Shown here one piece after another: positions 1 to 10,667 of a stretch of 64,000 nucleotides of DNA (its first letter is position 1; every line of letters starts with the position of its first letter). The DNA comes from Arthrobacter tumbae (GTDB lineage: Bacteria; Actinomycetota; Actinomycetes; Actinomycetales; Micrococcaceae): assembly GCF_016907495.1 (NCBI RefSeq), contig NZ_JAFBCC010000001.1, forward strand, positions 124,001-188,000, read 5' to 3'. The translations under genes were made by a program, and so were the position numbers. The notes below the pieces were generated by a model. The model was not told where the DNA came from. It saw nothing but the letters and a program-made list of their open reading frames with translations, and did not search any database.

Positions 1-375
1 CGCTGCCCACCAGAACCCCTCGTCCGGATAGTTCTCCGGGAACTTGATGTCCTCTGCGGGAACCGGAATTTCCGCACCGCACATATCAATCTCGAGGCAC
101 AGCTCCAGGCGGAGCGGTGCAACATCGTTTGTTGTGTCGGCGTCGCCGAGACCGATGCCCTTGTCCTGATACCAGAATGGGTACCCATTTGCATTGTCGA
201 TTGGACCGACCGCGGCCAGTCCTTCGCCGCCCGGAGTTGTTACGGCCGTCGCAACCGATGGCGCGACGAGAAGCGGCAGACACACCGCGCCCGCCGCAGT
301 AATGGCGGCAATCCGCTTCCCTGCGGATGTACTGCTGCTTTCCCGGTTCACCCGGGGGCGTCGATAACTAAGCAT
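1..375 (-). CDS. Secreted protein, N-terminal fragment (runs off left edge)
   Basis: The frame is open from an ATG at 373-375 to base 1, giving 125 codons with the C-terminus outside the window. An AGGGG-like ribosome site lies about 11 nt upstream of the start. The first ~45 residues look like a Sec signal peptide: a basic n-region rich in Arg and Ser, then an Ala/Val/Leu core ending near PSVATAVT. The mature part begins with GGEGLAAVGPID, NGYPFWYQD and a Cys-containing LRLELCLEIDMCG stretch, then aromatic residues around GFWW. I recall similar N-termini on large surface proteins of Arthrobacter-like bacteria but cannot name a function. It is divergent from the membrane protein at 524 and belongs to a cluster of exported proteins. 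Confidence 0.7.
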   Translation of the reverse strand, partial: MLSYRRPRVNRESSSTSAGKRIAAITAAGAVCLPLLVAPSVATAVTTPGGEGLAAVGPIDNANGYPFWYQDKGIGLGDADTTNDVAPLRLELCLEIDMCGAEIPVPAEDIKFPENYPDEGFWWAA

Positions 376-1267: not shown

Positions 1268-1335
1268 GCCGGAGCCGCTACCCAATCCCTACCTTGGAGG
1301 CATCAACACCCGCTCAGAAGTATGAGGTCTCCATC

Positions 1336-2319
1336 ATGTTGAAGTCAGATTCCTACCCCACCCCGGCATCCAGCGCCACGGTCCCCGTCCGGACCCCGGC
1401 AAACGTACTGTCCGTGAAAGTCATCGGGAGCTTGCAGATCGTCCGTGATGGGGTGACTCTCAGCGCGAAGGATTTTGGCGGCCCGAAGCCCCGGCAGATC
1501 CTCGAAATCCTGCTCATCAATCTCGGTAATCCAGTATCAAAAGACAAGCTCATCAGCCTCCTGTGGAACGGTAACCCTCCGGCTGAGGCGCTTCCGACAC
1601 TCGAAAGCTACGTAAGTGTCCTGCGCCGCAACCTGCAGCCCGGCGCCGGCAAGAACGGAGTACTGCGCACCACTACCGGCGGCTACGTCATCGACCGCAC
1701 GCTGGTTGATGTGGATCTCGCCCGGTTCGAGCGTTCGGTGCGCCTCGCGCATCAGTGCGAGCCGATTGAAGGCTTGAAGCTGATGCAGGAAGCACTTGCA
1801 TTTGCGGATGCGCCACTCCTCGGTGACGAGCTGCTCCCCGCCTGGGCCGAGGAAGAGCGCGATTTGCATGCGGCCAGGGTCACCGAGGCCAAGCTGTTCG
1901 CCGCTGAGACCGCCACAGCTGTCGGCGCATACGATCTGGCCATCACCTGGGCCAACCAGATCACAGCGCAGGATGCACTCAATGAACGGGCGTGGACCTC
2001 GCTGATCCTGGCGCTGGAGGCTTCCGGCCGTCACACGGAGGGTCTTCAAAGTTATGAACGTTGCCGCCGGATCATGCATCGCGAGCTCGGATGCTCCCCC
2101 GGCCCTGCACTGAAAGCGGCGCATGCAAGGTTGCTGCAGGCTACGGCCGATAGCGAAGGGGAACTGTCCGACGTGCTTTCGGCTCTCCTCCTCCTTCACA
2201 ACCAGATTTCCCGGACGGGCGTGGAAGTTCCGGCTGCAACGCCCGCTGCTGGTAAGTCCCTCCGCGAGGCCGGCAACGTATTGAACTCATTCCTTCGGCG
2301 AGCGCTCGCAGCGGCGTAG
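1336..2319 (+). CDS. SARP/AfsR-type transcriptional regulator (winged helix + BTAD)
   Basis: The protein has 327 residues from the ATG at 1336, which has GAGG 8 nt upstream; an in-frame TTG at 1294 is a weaker start. After a ~25-residue variable N-terminus, an OmpR-like winged-helix domain covers roughly residues 25-105, with KPRQILEILLINLGNPVSKDKLISLLW and YVSVLRRNL typical of SARPs. A bacterial transcriptional activation domain follows (DVDLARFERSV, then WAEEERDLHAARV, ALNERAW and YERCRRIMHRELGCSPGPAL). SARPs activate secondary-metabolism or development genes by binding direct heptamer repeats. The SLH multicopper oxidase gene starts 90 nt downstream on the same strand, so co-transcription or local control is likely but unproven. 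There is no NB-ARC or TPR extension. Confidence 0.85.
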   Translation: MLKSDSYPTPASSATVPVRTPANVLSVKVIGSLQIVRDGVTLSAKDFGGPKPRQILEILLINLGNPVSKDKLISLLWNGNPPAEALPTLESYVSVLRRNLQPGAGKNGVLRTTTGGYVIDRTLVDVDLARFERSVRLAHQCEPIEGLKLMQEALAFADAPLLGDELLPAWAEEERDLHAARVTEAKLFAAETATAVGAYDLAITWANQITAQDALNERAWTSLILALEASGRHTEGLQSYERCRRIMHRELGCSPGPALKAAHARLLQATADSEGELSDVLSALLLLHNQISRTGVEVPAATPAAGKSLREAGNVLNSFLRRALAAA

Positions 2320-2409
2320 TCCCAGCCCGCAGCTTCCCGGAGTACAGGGTTTCCACAATTCCAACGGTGGACCCTGAGATAGCAAAAGCAGGAGAAAAAG
2401 GAGAAAACC

Positions 2410-4596
2410 ATGTCAGTTTCGCGACGCCAAGTGCTGCTGTTCAGCGGCCTGGGTGTATTGGGGGCCGGAGCATTGGCGACACCGCTTCGATCGATCGAAG
2501 CCAAGTCGGCGAGCGCCCTACCCGAAGAACAGATGCCGGTCCCGTACCGGACGCGGTTCACGCAGGCGCCATTCTTAGTACCCTACGCTGTTGGCACGGA
2601 CCCCAGCGACGGCGAGACCATCAAGTACTTTTCGGTTGACGAAACGGCTGCCATGGCTTCGATGCTGCCGAATCGGAATATGCTCACGCCGATCCTGGGT
2701 TACAACGGCATCTTTCCTGGTCCCACGATCAGTCTTGAGCAGGGAGAAAAGGCTTTTCTGCGGGTGTGCAACCACCTTCCCGCCATACACCCCTCTGCGG
2801 GATATACGCTCGCCACCTCCACTCATCTGCACGGGTCCGCTTCGCTGCCCCAATTTGACGGCTATGCGAGTGACGTCACGAACACGGGATTCGTGAAGGA
2901 CTACCAATACGCTAACGCCCAGCCGGCGCGCACTCTCTGGTATCACGATCATGGAGTCCACCAGACTGCACAAAACGCATATTCCGGTCTCGCCGCGCAG
3001 TACCACCTGCACGATCCGTTGGAACGTGCGCTCCTTCCCCAAGGTGAGTTCGATGTCGCGCTCACTATCAGTGATGCGATGTTCGCCGCGAACGGCCAAC
3101 TGGCGTACGACGACAACTCGCACTCCGGTCTGTGGGGTGACGTCATCTTTGTCAACGGACAACCGTGGCCGGTCATGCAGGTTCAACGGCGTATCTACCG
3201 TTTCCGCGTGCTCAACTGCAGTATCTCCCGGTCCTTCCGGTTCCGGCTGAGCACGGGGGAACCCGTAACGATGGTGGCCACCGACGGAGGCCTGATGCCC
3301 TATGCGCAGCAGGTTGGTGAATGGCGTCACGCGGGTGCTGAACGCTATGAGATTCTCATCGACTTCCGCAACTACCAGCCCGGCCAAAGAGTCGAACTGC
3401 TGAACAGCTCCAACAGGAACAATGTGGACTACGACTTCACCAACAAGATCATGGCCTTCGATGTTGTGGACGCTCCAGTGGACACCAGTGACGGCACCTG
3501 GAACACGCTGCCCTACGAACTGGACCCGCACAATGAAGTCATGGCGCTCCAGCCACAGGACGCCATAAAGAGGCGCCACTTCCGGGTGAAGAAAACTGAC
3601 AGTATCTGGACCATTGACGACCGCGGCTGGGCTGACGTCATCGCCAGCAACTATCAGGACGTCATCGCCAATCCGGATCTCGGTGACACGGAGATCTGGT
3701 CCTTCGAGAACAGTTCCGGAGGCTGGTTCCACCCGATCCATGTCCACTTGGTGGACTTCAAGATCATCGGTGGAGAGGACCGGTCAACCTACGCCTACGA
3801 ACAGGGTCCCAAGGACGTCGTCTACGTCGGGGAAGGTGAGACGGTGCAATTGCTGATGAAGTTCGGTCCACACCGGGGCCGCTACATGGTGCACTGCCAC
3901 AACCTTCCGCATGAGGATCACGACATGATGGTTCAGTTCCGGGTGGGCGCGGCCGAACTGGAGCCGCCGAACCACGATCCCATCCTCGCCGCTCCGGGGT
4001 ACTGGGATGACGGTTCGGTTCCGCCGACCTATCCGCTGGCTCCCGAGTTCAGGGACGTCCCGCCAGGCACCCAGTTCCGCAAGGAGATAGGCTGGCTGGC
4101 CGTCAACGGCATTACCACCGGCTGGCCGGACCAGACCTTCCGCCCGCTGGCGCCGGTCTCCCGCGAAGCTATGGCAGCGTTCCTATACCGACTTTGCGGC
4201 AAGCCTGAACACGAGGTCGAGAACACTTTCAGGGACGTGCCAGCGAGCAACCCCTTCCGCCTGGAAATCAGTTGGCTTGCCGAAGAGGGAATCACCACCG
4301 GGTACGACGACGGCACCTTCCGGCCGCTGGGATCAGTGTCCCGTGAGGCGATGGCGGCGTTCCTATACCGGATCGCCGGTGAACCCGATGTTGAATCGGC
4401 AGGCGTATTCCTGGATGTACTGCCCGGTCACCAGTTCTACCGGGAGATCAGCTGGCTCGCATCGACAGGCATCACCACCGGTTACCCGGACGGCACTTTC
4501 CGCCCCGGCGCGGCAGTCGCACGCGACGCGATCGCTGCCTTCCTCTACCGGTACGCGCAGAAGTTCGGACGTCCCAACCGCGAGGATCTCGACTAG
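2410..4596 (+). CDS. Tat-exported CotA-like multicopper oxidase with three C-terminal SLH domains
   Basis: This 728-residue protein starts at an ATG behind AAAGGAGAAAACC. Its N-terminus MSVSRRQVLLFSGLGV is a twin-arginine signal, consistent with export of a folded copper enzyme. All four copper-binding clusters are present: HLHG at ~139-142, WYHDH at ~177-181, HPIHVH at ~441-446 and HCHNLPHEDHDMM at ~495-507. The last holds the type 1 Cys, its His five residues later and an axial Met ten residues later, as in CotA and phenoxazinone synthase. From ~547 to the end lie three S-layer homology domains (FRDVP, WLA..GITTG, FRP, MAAFLYR), which usually bind a secondary cell-wall polymer. Its substrate cannot be read: phenolics, bilirubin or Mn(II) are possible. 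It converges on the SLH heme peroxidase gene, and a 30-bp hairpin terminator follows the stop. Confidence 0.92.
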   Translation: MSVSRRQVLLFSGLGVLGAGALATPLRSIEAKSASALPEEQMPVPYRTRFTQAPFLVPYAVGTDPSDGETIKYFSVDETAAMASMLPNRNMLTPILGYNGIFPGPTISLEQGEKAFLRVCNHLPAIHPSAGYTLATSTHLHGSASLPQFDGYASDVTNTGFVKDYQYANAQPARTLWYHDHGVHQTAQNAYSGLAAQYHLHDPLERALLPQGEFDVALTISDAMFAANGQLAYDDNSHSGLWGDVIFVNGQPWPVMQVQRRIYRFRVLNCSISRSFRFRLSTGEPVTMVATDGGLMPYAQQVGEWRHAGAERYEILIDFRNYQPGQRVELLNSSNRNNVDYDFTNKIMAFDVVDAPVDTSDGTWNTLPYELDPHNEVMALQPQDAIKRRHFRVKKTDSIWTIDDRGWADVIASNYQDVIANPDLGDTEIWSFENSSGGWFHPIHVHLVDFKIIGGEDRSTYAYEQGPKDVVYVGEGETVQLLMKFGPHRGRYMVHCHNLPHEDHDMMVQFRVGAAELEPPNHDPILAAPGYWDDGSVPPTYPLAPEFRDVPPGTQFRKEIGWLAVNGITTGWPDQTFRPLAPVSREAMAAFLYRLCGKPEHEVENTFRDVPASNPFRLEISWLAEEGITTGYDDGTFRPLGSVSREAMAAFLYRIAGEPDVESAGVFLDVLPGHQFYREISWLASTGITTGYPDGTFRPGAAVARDAIAAFLYRYAQKFGRPNREDLD

Positions 4597-4629
4597 GCTC
4601 CAGCGCCTATCCGGCGAGACGAACCGACG

Positions 4630-4659
4630 ACGACGGCGGCACGCAAGTGCCGCCGTCGT
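4630..4659. terminator. Perfect GC-rich hairpin after the multicopper oxidase gene
   Basis: ACGACGGCGGCAC at 4630-4642 and its exact complement at 4647-4659 enclose a GCAA loop. It is followed by TCTGTGCTGT, only weakly T-rich. It sits 34 nt after the oxidase stop codon. Confidence 0.75.
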
Positions 4660-4704
4660 TCTGTGCTGTGCTGGTTCTCATCGCGCAATGCTTCGACAAG
4701 CGCC

Positions 4705-4747
4705 CACAATAAGACCCCGGAACGCATTGTTCCGGGGTCTTATTGTG
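4705..4747. terminator. Bidirectional terminator between convergent oxidase and peroxidase genes
   Basis: A perfect 19-bp stem (4705-4723 with 4729-4747) has a 5-nt loop. AATAAG at the outer base gives a U-rich end on either strand, so it should stop transcripts from both sides. It lies 22 nt downstream of the peroxidase stop. Confidence 0.85.
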
Positions 4748-4769
4748 TGGCCTACCCTGCGGCGCTGCC

Positions 4770-7700
4770 CTACGGCGTCGTGAAGTTGCTGAAGCGGTAC
4801 ATGAACGCGGCCATAGCGTCCCGGTTGACGGCTTGCACGGGGCGGAACTTCCCGTCGTCGTAACCCGTAGTGATCTTGGTGGAGGCCAGCCAGGTGATCT
4901 CCTTGAAGAACTGCCCGCCAACTGCCACGTCAGGGAAGGGCGAATCCTTCGGAGCGGTAAACCCAGGCTCACCGGCGAAGCGGTACATGAACGCCGCCAT
5001 CGCATCGCGATTCACCGGCTGAAGCGGCCGGAACGTCTTATCGTCGTAGCCCGTCGAGATCCCTTCCGAGGCAAGCCAGGTGATCTCCTTGTAGAACTTG
5101 GTCGTCGGGGTGACGTCCTTGAAGGGCGAGACCGCTGGCGGCACAAAGTCAGGTTCACCGGCGAAGCGGTACATGAACGCCGCCATCGCATCGCGATTCA
5201 CCGGCTGAAGCGGCCGGAACGTCTCATCGTCGTAGCCGGTGGAAATTCCTTCCGCCGCAAGCCACGTGATCTCCGTGAAGAACCGGTTGTTCTGAGGAAC
5301 ATCAATGAAAGGGGAAGGCGTTGGCGCCAGTGGAGTTGACGCTGACGAGTACGCCCCGGTGCCGACCGCATTCACCGCGGCTACCTGGAAGCGCAACAGG
5401 ATATTCGCCGGCAGGCCCTTCAGCGTCAGGGTGAGCTGGTCGCCAGGAACCTCCCGGATTGCCCCGACCTGCGCTCCAGTCATGTCGACAACCTTGACCT
5501 TATACGCGGTGATCGGCGAGCCGCCGGTCGACCCAGGGGCCCAGCTCACGGTCGCTGAGCCGGCCTTCCCGGTGGGATCACCCACGGTCGGCTGCCCCGG
5601 TACGACCGCCTTCGGGGTCACAGCTGCGGACGCGTCCGAGAACGCGCTGTCTCCCGCACGGTTGAAGGCCTGCACCTGGAACCGGTAGCTGCTGCCGTTG
5701 GTCAGGCCCTCGATGGTGAGGGACGTGGTCCGCGCGTCGGTCGCGCGCAGTACGCCGACCTGTGCGTTGGCTGAATCGAGTACCTTCACCCGGTATCCGC
5801 TCACTGCCGAATTGGCCGGTGCGGTCCAGGTGATCGTTGCTGTGCCGTTGCTCGCGGTAGCGGCCGGGGCAGCGGGCTTCGCAGGCGCCTGCGAGTCGGC
5901 GAAGAGCAGCTGCTCGACGTTGCGCAGGGTGTCCACGCCGTCACCCTGGGCAGGTCCGTCCTCTTCGCCTGCGGCCGGATCGTCGTCCGGTTCCGGCCGC
6001 GCCAGGTGTTCAACCGTGGTGACGCTGCTCGGTGAGCCGACTGTGGCGCCGAATGGAACCGTAGTGACTTTGTAGTTGATTTCGAAGTCCGTGAAGACGG
6101 CCACGTCGATGTCGCTTCCCGATCCGCCATGAATAATTTTGCGTTCGATGACGATGTTCGACGGATTCACGTCGCCCGCGAAGACCGCTGCCTGCAGCGT
6201 CCTTGCACTTCCATCGAGGTACGGCTTCTCCATACTGGTGGCACTGCCGATCTCGGTGGCGGGATCTGAGGGATCCGTGCGTACGCTCAGGCGAACTTCG
6301 AGGTGCTTGTCGCCGTCGAGGATGTCGTCACCTCCCCGGCCTTCCAGGGTGTCGCTACCGCCGCCGCCGAGGAGAATGTTTCCTTCTCCCCAGACTTTGC
6401 CGGCGTCCGTTGCTCCGGCCGGGAGCAGATCCTTGAGCCCCGCGATCCGAGCGACGCCCTCGGCGTCCAGCCAGTTCTTGCCTGAGAACCCTTCCCCTTC
6501 AACGAGCCGCGGAAGAACGTCGTCACCGCGCAGGACATCGTCCTGGTGTGCACCCGATAGCGCCTCGACTTCGGCGTACCTGTCACGCAGCACAGCGGCG
6601 GGCAGTGGCACCCCCAACAGGTTCAGTGTGAGATCTGCATCCGCAGCCAGTGGGTCGAGCTGATGGCTGGACCAGTCGAAGCCGGCTGCACCCGCGTTTC
6701 GTTCGATCCCGGCGTCCGCAAGCAGTACGTCGTCACCGCCCTCTGCGTCGTAGTCGTCGTCACCGTTGCCGCCGAGGAGAACGTCGTGTCCCGGGGTATT
6801 GGGATCATCGAAGAACGGCGCCCCGCTGTCTCCCATCAACAGGTCCGCTCCCTCGCCGCCCTGCAGCCAATCGTCCCCGCCGTCGCCACGCGCCATATCA
6901 TTGCCGTCGCCGGCAATCAGGAAGTCATCGCCCTCCCCGCCGAACACTTCATTGGTGTTTGCGCCGCCGTTGACGAAGTCCTTGCCGTCGCCCCCAAGGA
7001 TCAGGTCCAGGCCATGACCGCCGTCGAGGGCATCATGGCCAGGTCCGCCCTTGAGAACGTCATCGCCTGCTGAGTCCGTGATGATGTCATCGCCTTCCCC
7101 ACCCAAAGCCGTGTCGGCGCCGTCGTTGCCTTCGATGACGTCATCGCCCTCGTTGCCAAGGAAAGTGTCATTGTCTACTCCACCCCAAACCCGGTCCCCC
7201 TCGGCGGTGCCGTTGTAGACGCTCTGGCCGTTGATGCCCGCGGGGTCCACGGAGTTTGCGGTGCGGTAGCGGATGGTGCCATCCGGCATGCGGATCAGCA
7301 GTGCCTCCTCGTCGCATTCAGACAACGGGTCATCGAGGACGGTGGTACCGCTGAACTGCAGCCTGCCGAGTTCGAACTTGCAGTCCGACGTCGCGAACGC
7401 ATCGGCCTTCAGCGCCCGCGCAGTGGTGTTGCGCATGATCATCTCGGCGAAGGAGTTCCCTTCGAGCTGCGACAGCAAATTCATGCCGGGGGTCCGCGCC
7501 AGGTAATAGAACCGGTCACCGTTCTGCAGATCCGTCATCTGCTGCTCGAAAACGAAGTTGAAGGTGGAGCCGAGGAGCCCGCCGAAAAGGTTGGTGCGTT
7601 CGGCCAGGCCGCCGACCCACAAATCCACGGTATCCAGGCCGGTAGTGGATACACCCTCTTTAGTGGCCCATGCTCCGGTCGATCCCATGAAGGCCTGTGC

Positions 7701-10028
7701 GTCTGCAGGAATAGCACCTTCGGGAACGTCAATGGGCGGGTCCACCAACAGCTTTGCCGCGGCGCGCTTCTCCGCCATCGTCGTGGCGGCGGTAAGGGAG
7801 GGGTGCTTGCCATAGGCAGCAACGAAGTTCACCAGGGATTCCGGATGCTTGAGGCTCAGCCCGAAATCGATCCAGTTGGTGTACGGCTTGAGTTGCCCGT
7901 CATTCGTTTCCGCGTACAGTTGCTTGCGCAAATTGTTCAGCGACGGGATGCCAGTTTCCCTTGCCCGCGCCATGTTGATTGCCGCAAGGTCCAACGGCAG
8001 CCCCAACAGATTGTTCCGAAGGGTGTCAGTGGTGAACTCGTCGAGCTCGTTACCGACCTGCTCGGACATACCCATGGCGATTGCGCCGGCCGCCTCGCGG
8101 GAATCGAGCGTGCCTGCGGAGCCGCCGTTGAAGTATTCGGGTGGGTTCAGGAACGCCTCGAACAGTGGCACGTCATTGGTGGACCCATCGGCGTTCGTCC
8201 TGGACACCGTGTCAGTGAGCATCGAGTGACCGAACCGATAGACCGCATGCGCAAACTCGGCGGTGATAGCCGGGTTCACGTCGTCGTGATAGGTGGAGAA
8301 GGGCTCGATGAGCGGCTGCACCTTTCGCGCGAACTCTTCGAAGGCCAGGTGCTGGTACTCCATCTCGGCGACGAAACGGGCAGCCTGGAAGATCCGCTCA
8401 CCGTTCCAGCCACCGGCACCCGAGGCGCTCTTCCACTCGGCAAGAGCGGTGGCCCCGCGTGCGGATGTGTCGGCTGACAGGGTCTGCTTGATGTCGTCCA
8501 CGAGCCGGTTGTGCTCGGAATGGAAGACCTGATGAATCATGGTCAGGCCAACGTTCTCATTCACCCGTCCGTCGCCGGCGACGAAGTGGGCATTCAACAT
8601 CTCGTCGTCGTAAGTGGTACCGGGTGCACCGGGAGGAGTGATGATCGTGTCCGCGTCGGCGGTGAGTCCTGGCTTCGGGACGGCGTTATGTGCAATGTCG
8701 TCGAGGAAGGATTCATTGACCCGCAACGCATCAGCCGGCACGGCCACCGGATCGGCAACATTTCCTTCGACGAGGCCGTCAGCTGTGACGTACTGCGGGA
8801 GGCCGCGGGCGGGGCCCGGAACAAACTTGCCATATGGGTCGACGGCGAGCATCGGCACACTCAGAACGTCTGAATCGGCGAGCTTCAGCCCCATCCTCGT
8901 CGCCGCCTGCTGCTTCAACATTGCCCAGGTTGCCATGCCGCCGTCGGCTGACTCCAGCAACATTCCCGTGGACACGGGCTTGCCGGCGCTGTTGTTCGAG
9001 TACTCGCGAAGGAATACCTGATGGGACGGGTCGGAACTATAGGTCTGTGACTGGTCGACATACGGGTTCGTCCGGTTGGAGGCCTCGCGCACGTCGTCGG
9101 CGGTGCCGAGCTTACCGTCTTCGCCCGGCTGGTTGGTTGCCCTCGTCAGCACCATGAACCGCATGCGCGGCGGCAGGTCGTCAGCGGTGCCTGGCTCGCC
9201 ATCCGCGCCCGCAATCAGCGGGTCGTCCGGCTGCAGCGGGATGAAGACCGAGCTGCCCGACTTGTTGATCAGGTCGAGCCCGTGATCGAAGAACTGCCCG
9301 AAAAGCGTGAAGAGAGAGTTATACGGCGGTGACAGCCCGACGTCGGTGGTCACGTTGGGTATGAAGAGTGTCTCCCCCGCCGGTACGCACCCTTCAGGGA
9401 GGCCGGTTTCATCGCAGGGCGTTACTCCCTCATTCCCCTGGGTGCGTACCGGATACTTCGCCGCGGAAACCGCAGCGGGGTTGGCTGAGGTCTGGTCAAC
9501 GATAAGGTTGCTGATCAAGCGGGGCTGGGAGTCGACGACGTTGCCAATGCTGTCGTACGTTGTCTGCCCAGGCTCCCGGATTATGGCACCGTCTTCCGCC
9601 GCATGGAATTCCGGCGGGGCCAGTCGAGGGAATAGCTGGTTGGACGCACCGAAATCCTCCCGGTCCTGCTGCAGGTTGTTGCAGGATCCGTCGACAGTCC
9701 GCAGCCCGTAGGACACCAGCGGACCCGGAACCTGGTTCGGCCCGGGTCCAAGCAGCGCACCGCAAGGGCCGGTGTCCGACGTGGTATTGGCGACATGTGC
9801 CTCGGCGATTTTGATCTGTTTCAGGATGAACGCCAGATCTGCCGTAGTCACTCTGAATCCCTGCCCCACGGGTGCCGCATGCGCAGGGGCAGCCAGCGGC
9901 AAAAGTATGCCCGCCAGTACTGCCATCACAGTCAGACCTGATACCGTCCGGCGCAGCCTCAGGGGTCTGTCCGAACCGGCCCCGCCTGCATGTGTACCCC
10001 GAAATATTTCCAGCAGTCGCCCGCTCAT
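4770..10028 (-). CDS. Secreted animal-type heme peroxidase with RTX repeats, two FN3 and three SLH domains
   Basis: The protein has 1752 residues from the ATG at 10026-10028, with GGGAGGA just upstream; a TTG four codons earlier is the longer alternative. A signal peptide ends near APAHAAP. The peroxidase domain (~80-900) carries the likely distal His in FGQFFDHG (~249), VFHSEHNRL and the proximal His in YRFGHSMLTD (~601). Glycine/Asp-rich nonapeptides (GGEGDD, GNDGAD, GGHGLD) from ~940 to ~1090, with a short second block near 1200, are RTX calcium-binding repeats. Two fibronectin III domains (~1383-1565) precede three SLH domains (~1568-1752). The RTX plus animal-peroxidase combination recalls MopA-type Mn(II)-oxidising peroxidases, a resemblance from memory only. 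SLH units one and two share a 69-bp identical DNA block. The gene converges on the SLH multicopper oxidase. Confidence 0.9.
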   Translation of the reverse strand: MSGRLLEIFRGTHAGGAGSDRPLRLRRTVSGLTVMAVLAGILLPLAAPAHAAPVGQGFRVTTADLAFILKQIKIAEAHVANTTSDTGPCGALLGPGPNQVPGPLVSYGLRTVDGSCNNLQQDREDFGASNQLFPRLAPPEFHAAEDGAIIREPGQTTYDSIGNVVDSQPRLISNLIVDQTSANPAAVSAAKYPVRTQGNEGVTPCDETGLPEGCVPAGETLFIPNVTTDVGLSPPYNSLFTLFGQFFDHGLDLINKSGSSVFIPLQPDDPLIAGADGEPGTADDLPPRMRFMVLTRATNQPGEDGKLGTADDVREASNRTNPYVDQSQTYSSDPSHQVFLREYSNNSAGKPVSTGMLLESADGGMATWAMLKQQAATRMGLKLADSDVLSVPMLAVDPYGKFVPGPARGLPQYVTADGLVEGNVADPVAVPADALRVNESFLDDIAHNAVPKPGLTADADTIITPPGAPGTTYDDEMLNAHFVAGDGRVNENVGLTMIHQVFHSEHNRLVDDIKQTLSADTSARGATALAEWKSASGAGGWNGERIFQAARFVAEMEYQHLAFEEFARKVQPLIEPFSTYHDDVNPAITAEFAHAVYRFGHSMLTDTVSRTNADGSTNDVPLFEAFLNPPEYFNGGSAGTLDSREAAGAIAMGMSEQVGNELDEFTTDTLRNNLLGLPLDLAAINMARARETGIPSLNNLRKQLYAETNDGQLKPYTNWIDFGLSLKHPESLVNFVAAYGKHPSLTAATTMAEKRAAAKLLVDPPIDVPEGAIPADAQAFMGSTGAWATKEGVSTTGLDTVDLWVGGLAERTNLFGGLLGSTFNFVFEQQMTDLQNGDRFYYLARTPGMNLLSQLEGNSFAEMIMRNTTARALKADAFATSDCKFELGRLQFSGTTVLDDPLSECDEEALLIRMPDGTIRYRTANSVDPAGINGQSVYNGTAEGDRVWGGVDNDTFLGNEGDDVIEGNDGADTALGGEGDDIITDSAGDDVLKGGPGHDALDGGHGLDLILGGDGKDFVNGGANTNEVFGGEGDDFLIAGDGNDMARGDGGDDWLQGGEGADLLMGDSGAPFFDDPNTPGHDVLLGGNGDDDYDAEGGDDVLLADAGIERNAGAAGFDWSSHQLDPLAADADLTLNLLGVPLPAAVLRDRYAEVEALSGAHQDDVLRGDDVLPRLVEGEGFSGKNWLDAEGVARIAGLKDLLPAGATDAGKVWGEGNILLGGGGSDTLEGRGGDDILDGDKHLEVRLSVRTDPSDPATEIGSATSMEKPYLDGSARTLQAAVFAGDVNPSNIVIERKIIHGGSGSDIDVAVFTDFEINYKVTTVPFGATVGSPSSVTTVEHLARPEPDDDPAAGEEDGPAQGDGVDTLRNVEQLLFADSQAPAKPAAPAATASNGTATITWTAPANSAVSGYRVKVLDSANAQVGVLRATDARTTSLTIEGLTNGSSYRFQVQAFNRAGDSAFSDASAAVTPKAVVPGQPTVGDPTGKAGSATVSWAPGSTGGSPITAYKVKVVDMTGAQVGAIREVPGDQLTLTLKGLPANILLRFQVAAVNAVGTGAYSSASTPLAPTPSPFIDVPQNNRFFTEITWLAAEGISTGYDDETFRPLQPVNRDAMAAFMYRFAGEPDFVPPAVSPFKDVTPTTKFYKEITWLASEGISTGYDDKTFRPLQPVNRDAMAAFMYRFAGEPGFTAPKDSPFPDVAVGGQFFKEITWLASTKITTGYDDGKFRPVQAVNRDAMAAFMYRFSNFTTP
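4970..5224. repeat. 69-bp identical direct repeat within the SLH-coding region
   Basis: Bases 4970-5038 and 5156-5224 are identical and 186 bp (62 codons) apart. They encode equivalent parts of two SLH units, including the DDETFRPLQPVNRDAMAAF-like core. Identity at synonymous positions indicates a recent duplication or gene conversion inside the gene. Confidence 0.85.
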
Positions 10029-10172: not shown

Positions 10173-10667
10173 GTGGCTCACAGCACCATCGAGAAACACG
10201 GGGCCATACCGTTGCGTGTGGCAGTCGTACTGGTCTGCTGCCTGGCGGCCCTGCTGGCACTGCGCATCTGGGTACTCGAACCGTTGATCGTGGCTTCGGA
10301 CAGCATGGAGCCGACGGTCCCCGAGGGCAGCACCGTCCTGCTGCTGAAGTCACCCAGCTTTGAGGCCGGCTCCCTGGTGTCTTTCCGCAGTCCCATCGAC
10401 GACGCCTTGACCCTCAAGCGGGTCGTTGCCGTCGCGGGTCAAACGGTGGCTTTCGAAGATGCATTGCTGGTGATTGACGGTCGGGAGATACCTGAGCCGT
10501 TCGTGGACCACAGCCGCATAGACGGTACTTACTTCGGGCCGGTGACGGTTCCGGCCGGGCATGTTTTTGTGCTGGGAGACAACCGTGGACGGTCAATCGA
10601 TTCACGGGACTTCGGCGCTATCCCCGTCCACAGCATCGAAGCGACAGTGCTGTGGCCTTCACCTTAG
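10173..10667 (+). CDS. lepB: Type I signal peptidase (small actinobacterial form)
   Basis: This 164-residue protein starts at a GTG preceded by GGAGGAGG. One N-terminal membrane segment (~15-35) is followed by the catalytic serine box SDSMEPT (Ser44) and the general-base lysine in LKRVVAV (Lys82). The GDNRGRSIDSRDFG box near the C-terminus completes the S26 signal-peptidase signature. It removes Sec or Tat signal peptides on the outer membrane face. At 164 residues it is short for the family, with a minimal cap domain. It is divergent from the giant heme peroxidase, so it may serve the neighbouring exported proteins or be the housekeeping enzyme; the sequence does not decide. Confidence 0.88.
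   Translation: MAHSTIEKHGAIPLRVAVVLVCCLAALLALRIWVLEPLIVASDSMEPTVPEGSTVLLLKSPSFEAGSLVSFRSPIDDALTLKRVVAVAGQTVAFEDALLVIDGREIPEPFVDHSRIDGTYFGPVTVPAGHVFVLGDNRGRSIDSRDFGAIPVHSIEATVLWPSP

Follow-up and report, generated by a model that had tools for sequence, protein, structure and literature searches.

Described relatives of the locus reported here include proteins of manganese-oxidizing bacteria. Mn(II) oxidation by MopA of Erythrobacter requires heme, Ca, and NAD+, with no stimulation by H2O2 (PMC6247904), and Pseudomonas putida GB-1 possesses MnxG, McoA, and MopA (PMC11930936; PMC9765421), with MopA overproduced in a fleQ deletion (PMC9765421). The PERCAL motif of the peroxicins, heme peroxidases related to MopA, was defined in a paper whose table includes 2 Arthrobacter peroxicins with PERCAL (PMC3396595). 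Mn oxidation has been reported for Arthrobacter isolates (PMC8533519; PMC11356483, in co-culture), and BoxA of Arthrobacter sp. QXT-31 is listed among experimentally characterized Mn-oxidizing proteins (PMC12896264, Table 1), where its accession is given as ANG58850.1 and a GB-1 peroxidase appears as AHP (ABY99245.1). We analyzed a 64,000-nucleotide stretch of Arthrobacter tumbae (the window, G000:C1:124001-188000), located in a single-contig genome of 3.70 Mb, and identified at its left end genes for a multicopper oxidase (MCO), an RTX animal-type heme peroxidase (Px), and a third protein, P8, each ending in 3 SLH domains. Our literature search found no paper joining Arthrobacter with SLH, MCO, and peroxidase. 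Throughout, G numbers denote genomes and L numbers loci, with G000 being the window genome.

We interpret this stretch, together with roughly 3 kb beyond the left window edge, as a wall-displayed cassette in the order P8-P3-SARP-MCO-Px-signal peptidase, which, judged from its sequence, most likely serves Mn(II) oxidation (probability roughly 0.6). Its genes are as follows:

1..375, minus strand: 5' end (first 125 codons) of the P8 gene; whole gene G000:C1:121355-124375 (L015:15355-18375:-), 1006 amino acids
422..1123, plus strand: P3, a small protein in which a hydrophobic segment was seen by eye, recurring beside SARP, MCO, or Px in other genomes
1294..2319, plus strand: SARP-type regulator (Trans_reg_C and BTAD, Pfam), 90 bp upstream of the MCO and co-directional with it
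2410..4596, plus strand: MCO, three-domain, bilirubin-oxidase/CotA type, 728 amino acids (Pfam, motifs, solved-structure match)
4770..10028, minus strand: Px, RTX animal-type heme peroxidase of the long-peroxicin type, 1752 amino acids from ATG 10028 or 1756 from TTG 10040
10173..10667, plus strand: signal peptidase I (PF10502, 2.4e-31), recurring beside MCO and/or Px elsewhere

Pfam matches and coordinates confirmed what the initial annotation had described, namely a convergent MCO and RTX heme peroxidase, each with 3 terminal SLH domains, flanked by a SARP-type regulator and a signal peptidase I. The locus resembles the Mnx system and MopA of P. putida GB-1 in that multicopper oxidases and a MopA-type peroxidase occur in one organism, and P8 accompanies MnxG in the sampled Pseudomonas genomes. 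In contrast to GB-1, the window encodes a small three-domain MCO in place of the giant MnxG, a single-domain Px with SLH, and a SARP beside the MCO, and its products would be displayed on a Gram-positive wall. BoxA, which we take to be a bilirubin-oxidase-type MCO, is likewise an Arthrobacter protein and is listed as Mn-oxidizing.

The P8 gene crosses the left window edge and encodes an apparently secreted protein (the signal-like N-termini of P8, MCO, and Px were judged by eye) with 2 copies of a domain of about 230 amino acids, followed by CHB_HEX_C, fn3, and 3 SLH domains. The region of the repeated domain had no Pfam match at E <= 0.01, short P8 relatives of 479 amino acids in L181 and 435 amino acids in L185 matched 0 Pfam families (at E <= 0.01 and E <= 0.001, respectively), and no NCBIfam model covered the domain in the 5 P8-type proteins among 8 proteins scanned. 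Of the 32 loci L155-L186, 30 contained the domain according to a profile of 225 positions, seeded from Arthrobacter copies including both of P8; the open reading frame sets of L158 and L170 gave none. The AlphaFold2 model, built from 52 domain sequences of related loci, was beta-rich, with a mean pLDDT of 89.7 and a pTM of 0.86. A Foldseek search of this model against the PDB returned 0 matches at E <= 0.001 and 290 at E <= 10, the highest-ranked including weak SOD1-like sandwiches, and the best hit of a profile search for a solved homologue had an E of 0.18; with both searches negative, no solved relative was accepted. The domain has 11 invariant columns (2 Asp, 2 Cys, 4 Gly, a Pro-Tyr pair, and a Leu), and Glu69, Glu94, and Asp189 rank as invariant or nearly so, as no His does, so that any metal site to look for would be acidic rather than histidine-based. 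By its sequence, the P8 domain is a so far undescribed family, defined in this analysis. No P8-like protein was named in the titles and opening abstract lines listed by our literature searches, a weak negative for a protein that has no name to search by.

A scan of genome contigs for P8 identified 33 loci, distributed over Actinobacteria, Pseudomonas, Nitrospirota, Methylomagnum, and others. Nine more actinobacterial genomes with P8 (G272-G280, 1 of them G002 again) all carried an MCO (51-69%) and a Px (58-81%), and among all distinct actinobacterial P8 genomes, 19 of 19 had the MCO and 16 of 19 had Px, with Px lacking in G027, G060, and G061. G060, an uncultured actinobacterium, had P8 together with pieces of an MCO, the latter at 48-52% identity; Rubrobacter G061 had an MCO at 41%, its P8 being found by tblastn and not by the profile. 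Neighboring genes for an MCO and a P8 homologue were also identified in L279 (A. ipis) and L275 (a plasmid of Arthrobacter sp. FW305-BF8); no MCO was called in the examined flanks of P8 loci L157, L159-L164, and L169. On the plasmid stretch (L275:11953-22887 on NZ_CP084562.1, from a groundwater Arthrobacter), the MCO and the P8 homologue, annotated as hypothetical, are grouped with 2 further MCO-domain genes, an Nramp transporter, and a metal-dependent regulator.

Outside the Actinobacteria, P8 was often found in the company of MnxG. Among 199 Pseudomonas genomes drawn evenly across the genus, with MnxG counted at E <= 1e-100, 61 carried P8, 59 carried MnxG, and 138 carried neither; all 59 MnxG genomes had P8, and 59 of the 61 P8 genomes had MnxG (Fisher 9e-49, the genomes behind this and all later Fisher values being related and not independent). 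In 60 genomes, P8 gave one match covering 740 or more of 756 residues; in G122, the match came in pieces. Two Pseudomonas MnxG proteins scanned against the NCBIfam MnxG model (NF041487, cut-off 3100 bits) scored 3910 and 3795 bits. In same-contig examples, P8 lay some 20-30 kb from MnxG (G070, G078, and G118), adjacent to it (G240), or more than 100 kb away (G130, G175, and G183). An MnxG-like match (E <= 1e-8) was identified in 11 of 14 distant P8 genomes, the match in G062 being weak (7.7e-16), and none was found in G061, G067, and Pseudomonas G068.

The order in L185 (Nitrospirae) was MnxG-like MCO, YNCE/YVTN-type propeller, SCO1, P8, and P8, with a cytochrome-c/ABC binding protein after the P8 pair on the opposite strand. 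The L185 MCO, of 1699 amino acids, had MnxG as its sole solved match (9bxa_A, E 9e-99) and scored 1655 bits against the NCBIfam model, below the cut-off. The same gene kinds surround P8 in L172 (Methylomagnum), and the mnxG operon of P. putida GB-1 contains gene kinds matching L185 (PMC11409713, Table 4). Further, P8 stood beside 1 or 2 histidine kinases and a sigma-54 regulator in L177, L181, L182, G070, and G094; a P8 pair stood beside 2 such kinases and the regulator in G070, L182, and G094, and these neighbors were not called in G236. They resemble mnxS1, mnxS2, and mnxR in arrangement and are candidates only for these genes. A curlin-repeat protein lies downstream of the P8 pair in Pseudomonas (L183:13086-14537, L182:9832-11283, and L177:13313-14764; assigned by Pfam on L183 and by similarity on L182 and L177), hinting at a link to the matrix. 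G060 encodes a giant MCO related to MnxG, which at 339 bits falls far short of the MnxG cut-off and adjoins a fragment of the window-type MCO. This giant MCO, in L277, is the minus-strand open reading frame 2140-8313; a plus-strand open reading frame of 2076 amino acids there, without an NCBIfam match, was rejected for this assignment.

We surveyed 38 genomes of the genus, counting MCOs at >=60% identity (thus excluding G013, 37%) and Px of the first type alone (excluding the second type, of about 55% identity, found in G000, G005, G025, and G029). The MCO was present in 19, Px in 14, and both in 12; 7 had the MCO without Px (G006, G009, G012, G015, G016, G027, and G057) and 2 had Px without the MCO (G008 and G059). 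A full P8 was identified in 8 genomes and a partial one in G027, which is 68% complete. All 9 P8 genomes carried the MCO, and the 8 with full P8 also carried Px (Fisher 0.002 for MCO with Px and 1e-5 for P8 with both); since the genomes are related, these values overstate the association. In the 12 genomes that carry both enzymes, the 2 genes were direct neighbors in 4 (G000, G022, G029, and G007), spaced in 1 (G025), apart in 6, and unplaced at contig ends in G019. The initial annotation had treated the MCO and Px as a pair; with each enzyme occurring independently and only 4 of 12 genomes showing direct adjacency, a fixed MCO-Px unit is unsupported and was rejected.

Gene order was compared in 33 loci of the genus, leaving out G016 and G027. 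The order metG-P8-P3-SARP-MCO-Px-signal peptidase was identified in G000, G022, and G029, with serA next in G000 and G029, and the contig stretch of G022 stopping short of that site. The G025 locus lacks a SARP call, has additional genes separating MCO from Px, and carries a Px that spans a contig break. At the cassette site of G018, G004, G002, and G023, Px was present without MCO and P8, accompanied by P3 and SARP in G018 and G004, SARP in G002, and signal peptidase in G004, G002, and G023 (the G023 contig ends beside Px); in G018, G004, and G023, the MCO lies at another site, adjoining a P8 homologue. SARP, signal peptidase, MCO, and Px are grouped in G007, and the MCO occurs with P3, SARP, and/or signal peptidase and no adjoining Px in G006, G010, G012, G015, G019, G030, and G057. 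P9, an apparently secreted fn3/CHB_HEX protein of about 700-780 amino acids, was found near the MCO in G012, G019, G030, and G057, all without P8 (L143:2827-5166, L146:4049-6337, L148:2886-5225, L149:1813-3900, and L152:10163-12460; Pfam on L143 only), and is perhaps a substitute partner for P8.

The window MCO begins with a twin-arginine-like N-terminus (MSVSRRQVL, by eye) and contains Cu-oxidase_3, Cu-oxidase_1, and Cu-oxidase_2 domains before its C-terminal SLH domains:

4048..4524, plus strand: 3 SLH repeats of the MCO (SLH family search; G000:C1:128048-128524)

All 4 copper motifs are kept (STHLHG at 137, YHDHGVH at 178, HPIHVHL at 441, and HCHNLPHEDHDMM at 495), and with its 3 cupredoxin domains the protein belongs to the three-domain MCOs. 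The initial annotation had called it CotA-like, which is loosely right because CotA (1gsk, 211 bits) came second among solved relatives, after bilirubin oxidase (6iqz, E 2.7e-94, 320 bits). The window MCO shares the three-domain family and copper motifs of these enzymes and differs from them in being a bacterial, SLH-bearing protein within a cassette. It does match the CueO model, and a CueO-like role in copper detoxification was therefore considered; at 180.5 bits, far below the cut-off of 525, and with wall anchoring and partner genes (among which no systematic search for copper genes was made) that do not fit such a role, we regard it as very improbable. G000 and G025 share 97% identity in the SLH block of the MCO (window 4048-4596; L124:6898-9090), compared with 80% in the catalytic part, and a possible explanation is recombination of the anchor.

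Px comprises an An_peroxidase domain (7e-65), RTX repeats, 2 fn3 domains, and 3 SLH domains (Pfam), with the following features:

4809..5279, minus strand: SLH repeats of Px (PF00395 match; G000:C1:128809-129279)
6342..7103, minus strand: RTX nonapeptide region (Pfam and motif search)
8217..8240, minus strand: proximal histidine motif YRFGHSML (motif search)
9273..9302, minus strand: distal heme motif FGQFFDHGLD (motif search)

Seven RTX nonapeptides were counted, and PERCAL insertions were identified at residues 278 and 306, numbered from TTG 10040 (0 in 2000 protein shuffles). The distal, proximal, and Arg-Glu heme motifs are kept, with residue roles that we take to be those of the mammalian peroxidases, and a check for lost heme or copper ligands found every key motif in place in both Px and MCO. 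In its peroxidase domain, PERCAL, RTX, and heme motifs, Px agrees with the long MopA/PepA peroxicins of Erythrobacter SD-21, Aurantimonas, and P. putida, from which it differs by having 1 peroxidase domain and ending in fn3 and SLH. As Arthrobacter peroxicins already stand in the PERCAL table, the family is not new in this genus. Pseudomonas relatives of Px, candidates for either MopA or PepA, are two-domain frames of 3378-3927 amino acids, 46-50% identical by tblastn and 54-58% over separately scored pieces. A second RTX heme peroxidase paralogue, about 50% identical, lies at G000:C1:2828220-2833262 on the minus strand (L141:7226-12379:-), without SLH and with no MCO called in the surrounding stretch; this second type was also found in G005, G025, G029, G273, G276, and G277. 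In L123 (G029:C39, Arthrobacter sp. H5), Px is broken into several pieces, with P8 and MCO open.

These enzyme families would also fit surface oxidation of phenolics, humics, or lignin-derived compounds, with a laccase-type MCO acting on aromatics, Px as a scavenger, and the Mn link of P8 not transferable to Arthrobacter. The bilirubin oxidase relationship, the lack of P8 in 10 of the 19 genus genomes that carry the MCO, and the proposed reactive oxygen species (ROS) role of PepA-type peroxicins (PMC3396595) agree with such a system. It would not, however, predict that P8 accompanies both oxidases in Actinobacteria and MnxG elsewhere, and BoxA is listed as Mn-oxidizing (PMC12896264); we consider it unlikely.

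The SLH search of G000 gave 14 matches in 6 proteins, namely MCO, Px, P8, a metallopeptidase-like protein, a subtilase, and a GH25 lysozyme-like protein, with 3 of the 6 lying within one 13-kb stretch. The initial annotation had assigned the anchors of MCO and Px to the same sequence type. Their identity of 56% bears this out in part, but the point is weaker than stated, and SLH similarity as proof of MCO-Px pairing was rejected because the SLH block of Px is 58% identical to that of the GH25 protein, encoded elsewhere in the genome (Px-P8, 64%). From sequence comparison, the matching anchors would largely reflect the common SLH type of this genome.

The joint change of the P8 and Px tails across genomes is a better argument. 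Of 15 genomes in which both tails could be seen in whole or in part, 12 had like terminal modules on the 2 proteins, with SLH on both in G000, G022, G025, and G029 and FG-GAP-like repeats on both in G002, G004, G018, G023, G274, G276, G277, and G279; neither module was recognized on the tails of G272. Tails run off contigs for P8 of G002 and Px of G025 and G279; G278 repeats G002 and was counted once, G280 has a short P8 only, and G027, G060, and G061 were left out. Among the MCOs read, only those of the 4 SLH genomes carry SLH. PF04230 pyruvyltransferases were identified in 26 of the 38 genus genomes, including 10 of 10 with SLH among the matches listed versus 16 of 28 others, and at E <= 1e-25 in 8 of 10 versus 1 of 28. 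These SLH genomes (at least 10: G000, G005, G006, G008, G010, G022, G024, G025, G029, and G059) were drawn from searches for other purposes. The G000 match (E 3.3e-26) is a 520-amino acid frame in a family broader than CsaB. G000 has both SLH repeats and a candidate pyruvyltransferase, so wall binding is predicted.

Between the convergent genes lies one further feature:

4597..4769, no strand: intergenic stretch with 2 strong terminator-like hairpins (fold of 4590-4775: z -7.67, 0 of 200 shuffles as stable)

With 2 strong hairpins between them, MCO and Px both look like separately ended units. P3, SARP, and MCO run in one direction, and signal peptidase I is divergent from Px; P3 had no match in Pfam or NCBIfam. 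The convergent genes and hairpins, the Px-GH25 identity as high as that of MCO-Px, and the adjacency in just 4 of 12 genomes would suit a Px that acts in defense against competitors, haloperoxidase-like or using H2O2, with the MCO as an unrelated neighbor and SLH as a house-style anchor. We consider this improbable, as 12 of the 14 Px genomes of the genus carry the MCO, both enzymes are associated with P8, and P3, SARP, and signal peptidase recur beside either enzyme. The same recurrence beside MCO or Px in other genomes led us to reject SARP and signal peptidase as mere bystanders. A signal peptidase was also found at such a locus on the Paenarthrobacter R1 plasmid. These companions are not universal; no P3, SARP, or signal peptidase gene was called next to the MCO in G009, G002, G004, G018, and G023.

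In a cassette devoted to Mn(II) oxidation, the SLH repeats of P8, MCO, and Px would bind pyruvylated wall polymer, and the MCO would oxidize Mn(II) using O2. Px, as a MopA/PepA-type peroxicin, could add a peroxide- or superoxide-linked route or, alternatively, remove H2O2 that would re-reduce Mn(III/IV). P8 would be an accessory common to the MnxG systems of other phyla, acting in metal binding, partner docking, or oxide nucleation, and the SARP would turn on the gene set. The initial annotation had proposed joint surface display for oxidation of Mn(II), phenolics, or halides; co-display and the Mn(II) option gain support through P8, which tracks MnxG and occurs with both actinobacterial oxidases, and manganese as the substrate is still something we infer.

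Several observations weigh against this interpretation. MCO and Px are each found without P8 or without their partner, and P8 occurs without MnxG in Pseudomonas G094 and G236, within the sample, and G068, outside it. The window MCO is not MnxG (no match to NF041487 at E <= 0.001), and homologues of the L185 MnxG and propeller are absent from the window and the 18 kb to its left, the rest of G000 being unsearched for MnxG. The tails differ in G273, with an SLH-like P8 (missed by the regular expression and assigned from a BLAST match of 45-46%) and an fn3-like Px (by eye), and in G275, with FG-GAP on P8 and both Px copies ending otherwise. On the literature side, the BoxA parallel comes from a table listing and not from sequence comparison, GB-1 MopA is reported as inactive in the wild type and a double mutant (PMC11930936), and PepA of P. 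putida KT2440, a relative of Px, is a peroxidase with a proposed ROS role, in a paper that describes catalytic properties as unpredictable at present (PMC3396595).

Because P8 relatives in other phyla often occur with MnxG, we probably deal with a wall-bound manganese-oxidation kit, and P8 is probably a new part of Mn-oxidation systems. More tentatively, the P8 domain may be a dedicated, so far unrecognized component of Mn(II) oxidation that is independent of the oxidase type. In Actinobacteria, it would act with a MopA-type peroxidase and an MCO of the bilirubin oxidase type, and in Pseudomonas, Nitrospirota, and Methylomagnum with the giant MnxG; a Mn(II/III)-binding scaffold and an oxide-nucleating surface are examples of such a role. 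To our knowledge, no accessory protein common to different bacterial Mn oxidases has been described, and the genes for Mn(II) oxidation in Gram-positive soil bacteria are largely an open question. The P8 domain provides a sequence marker that coincides almost perfectly with MnxG in the Pseudomonas sample and, in Actinobacteria, marks a defined, testable wall-bound enzyme set. Two questions are now open to gene removal, namely whether MnxG-bearing Pseudomonas need P8 and whether P8, MCO, and Px are the Mn machinery of Arthrobacter.

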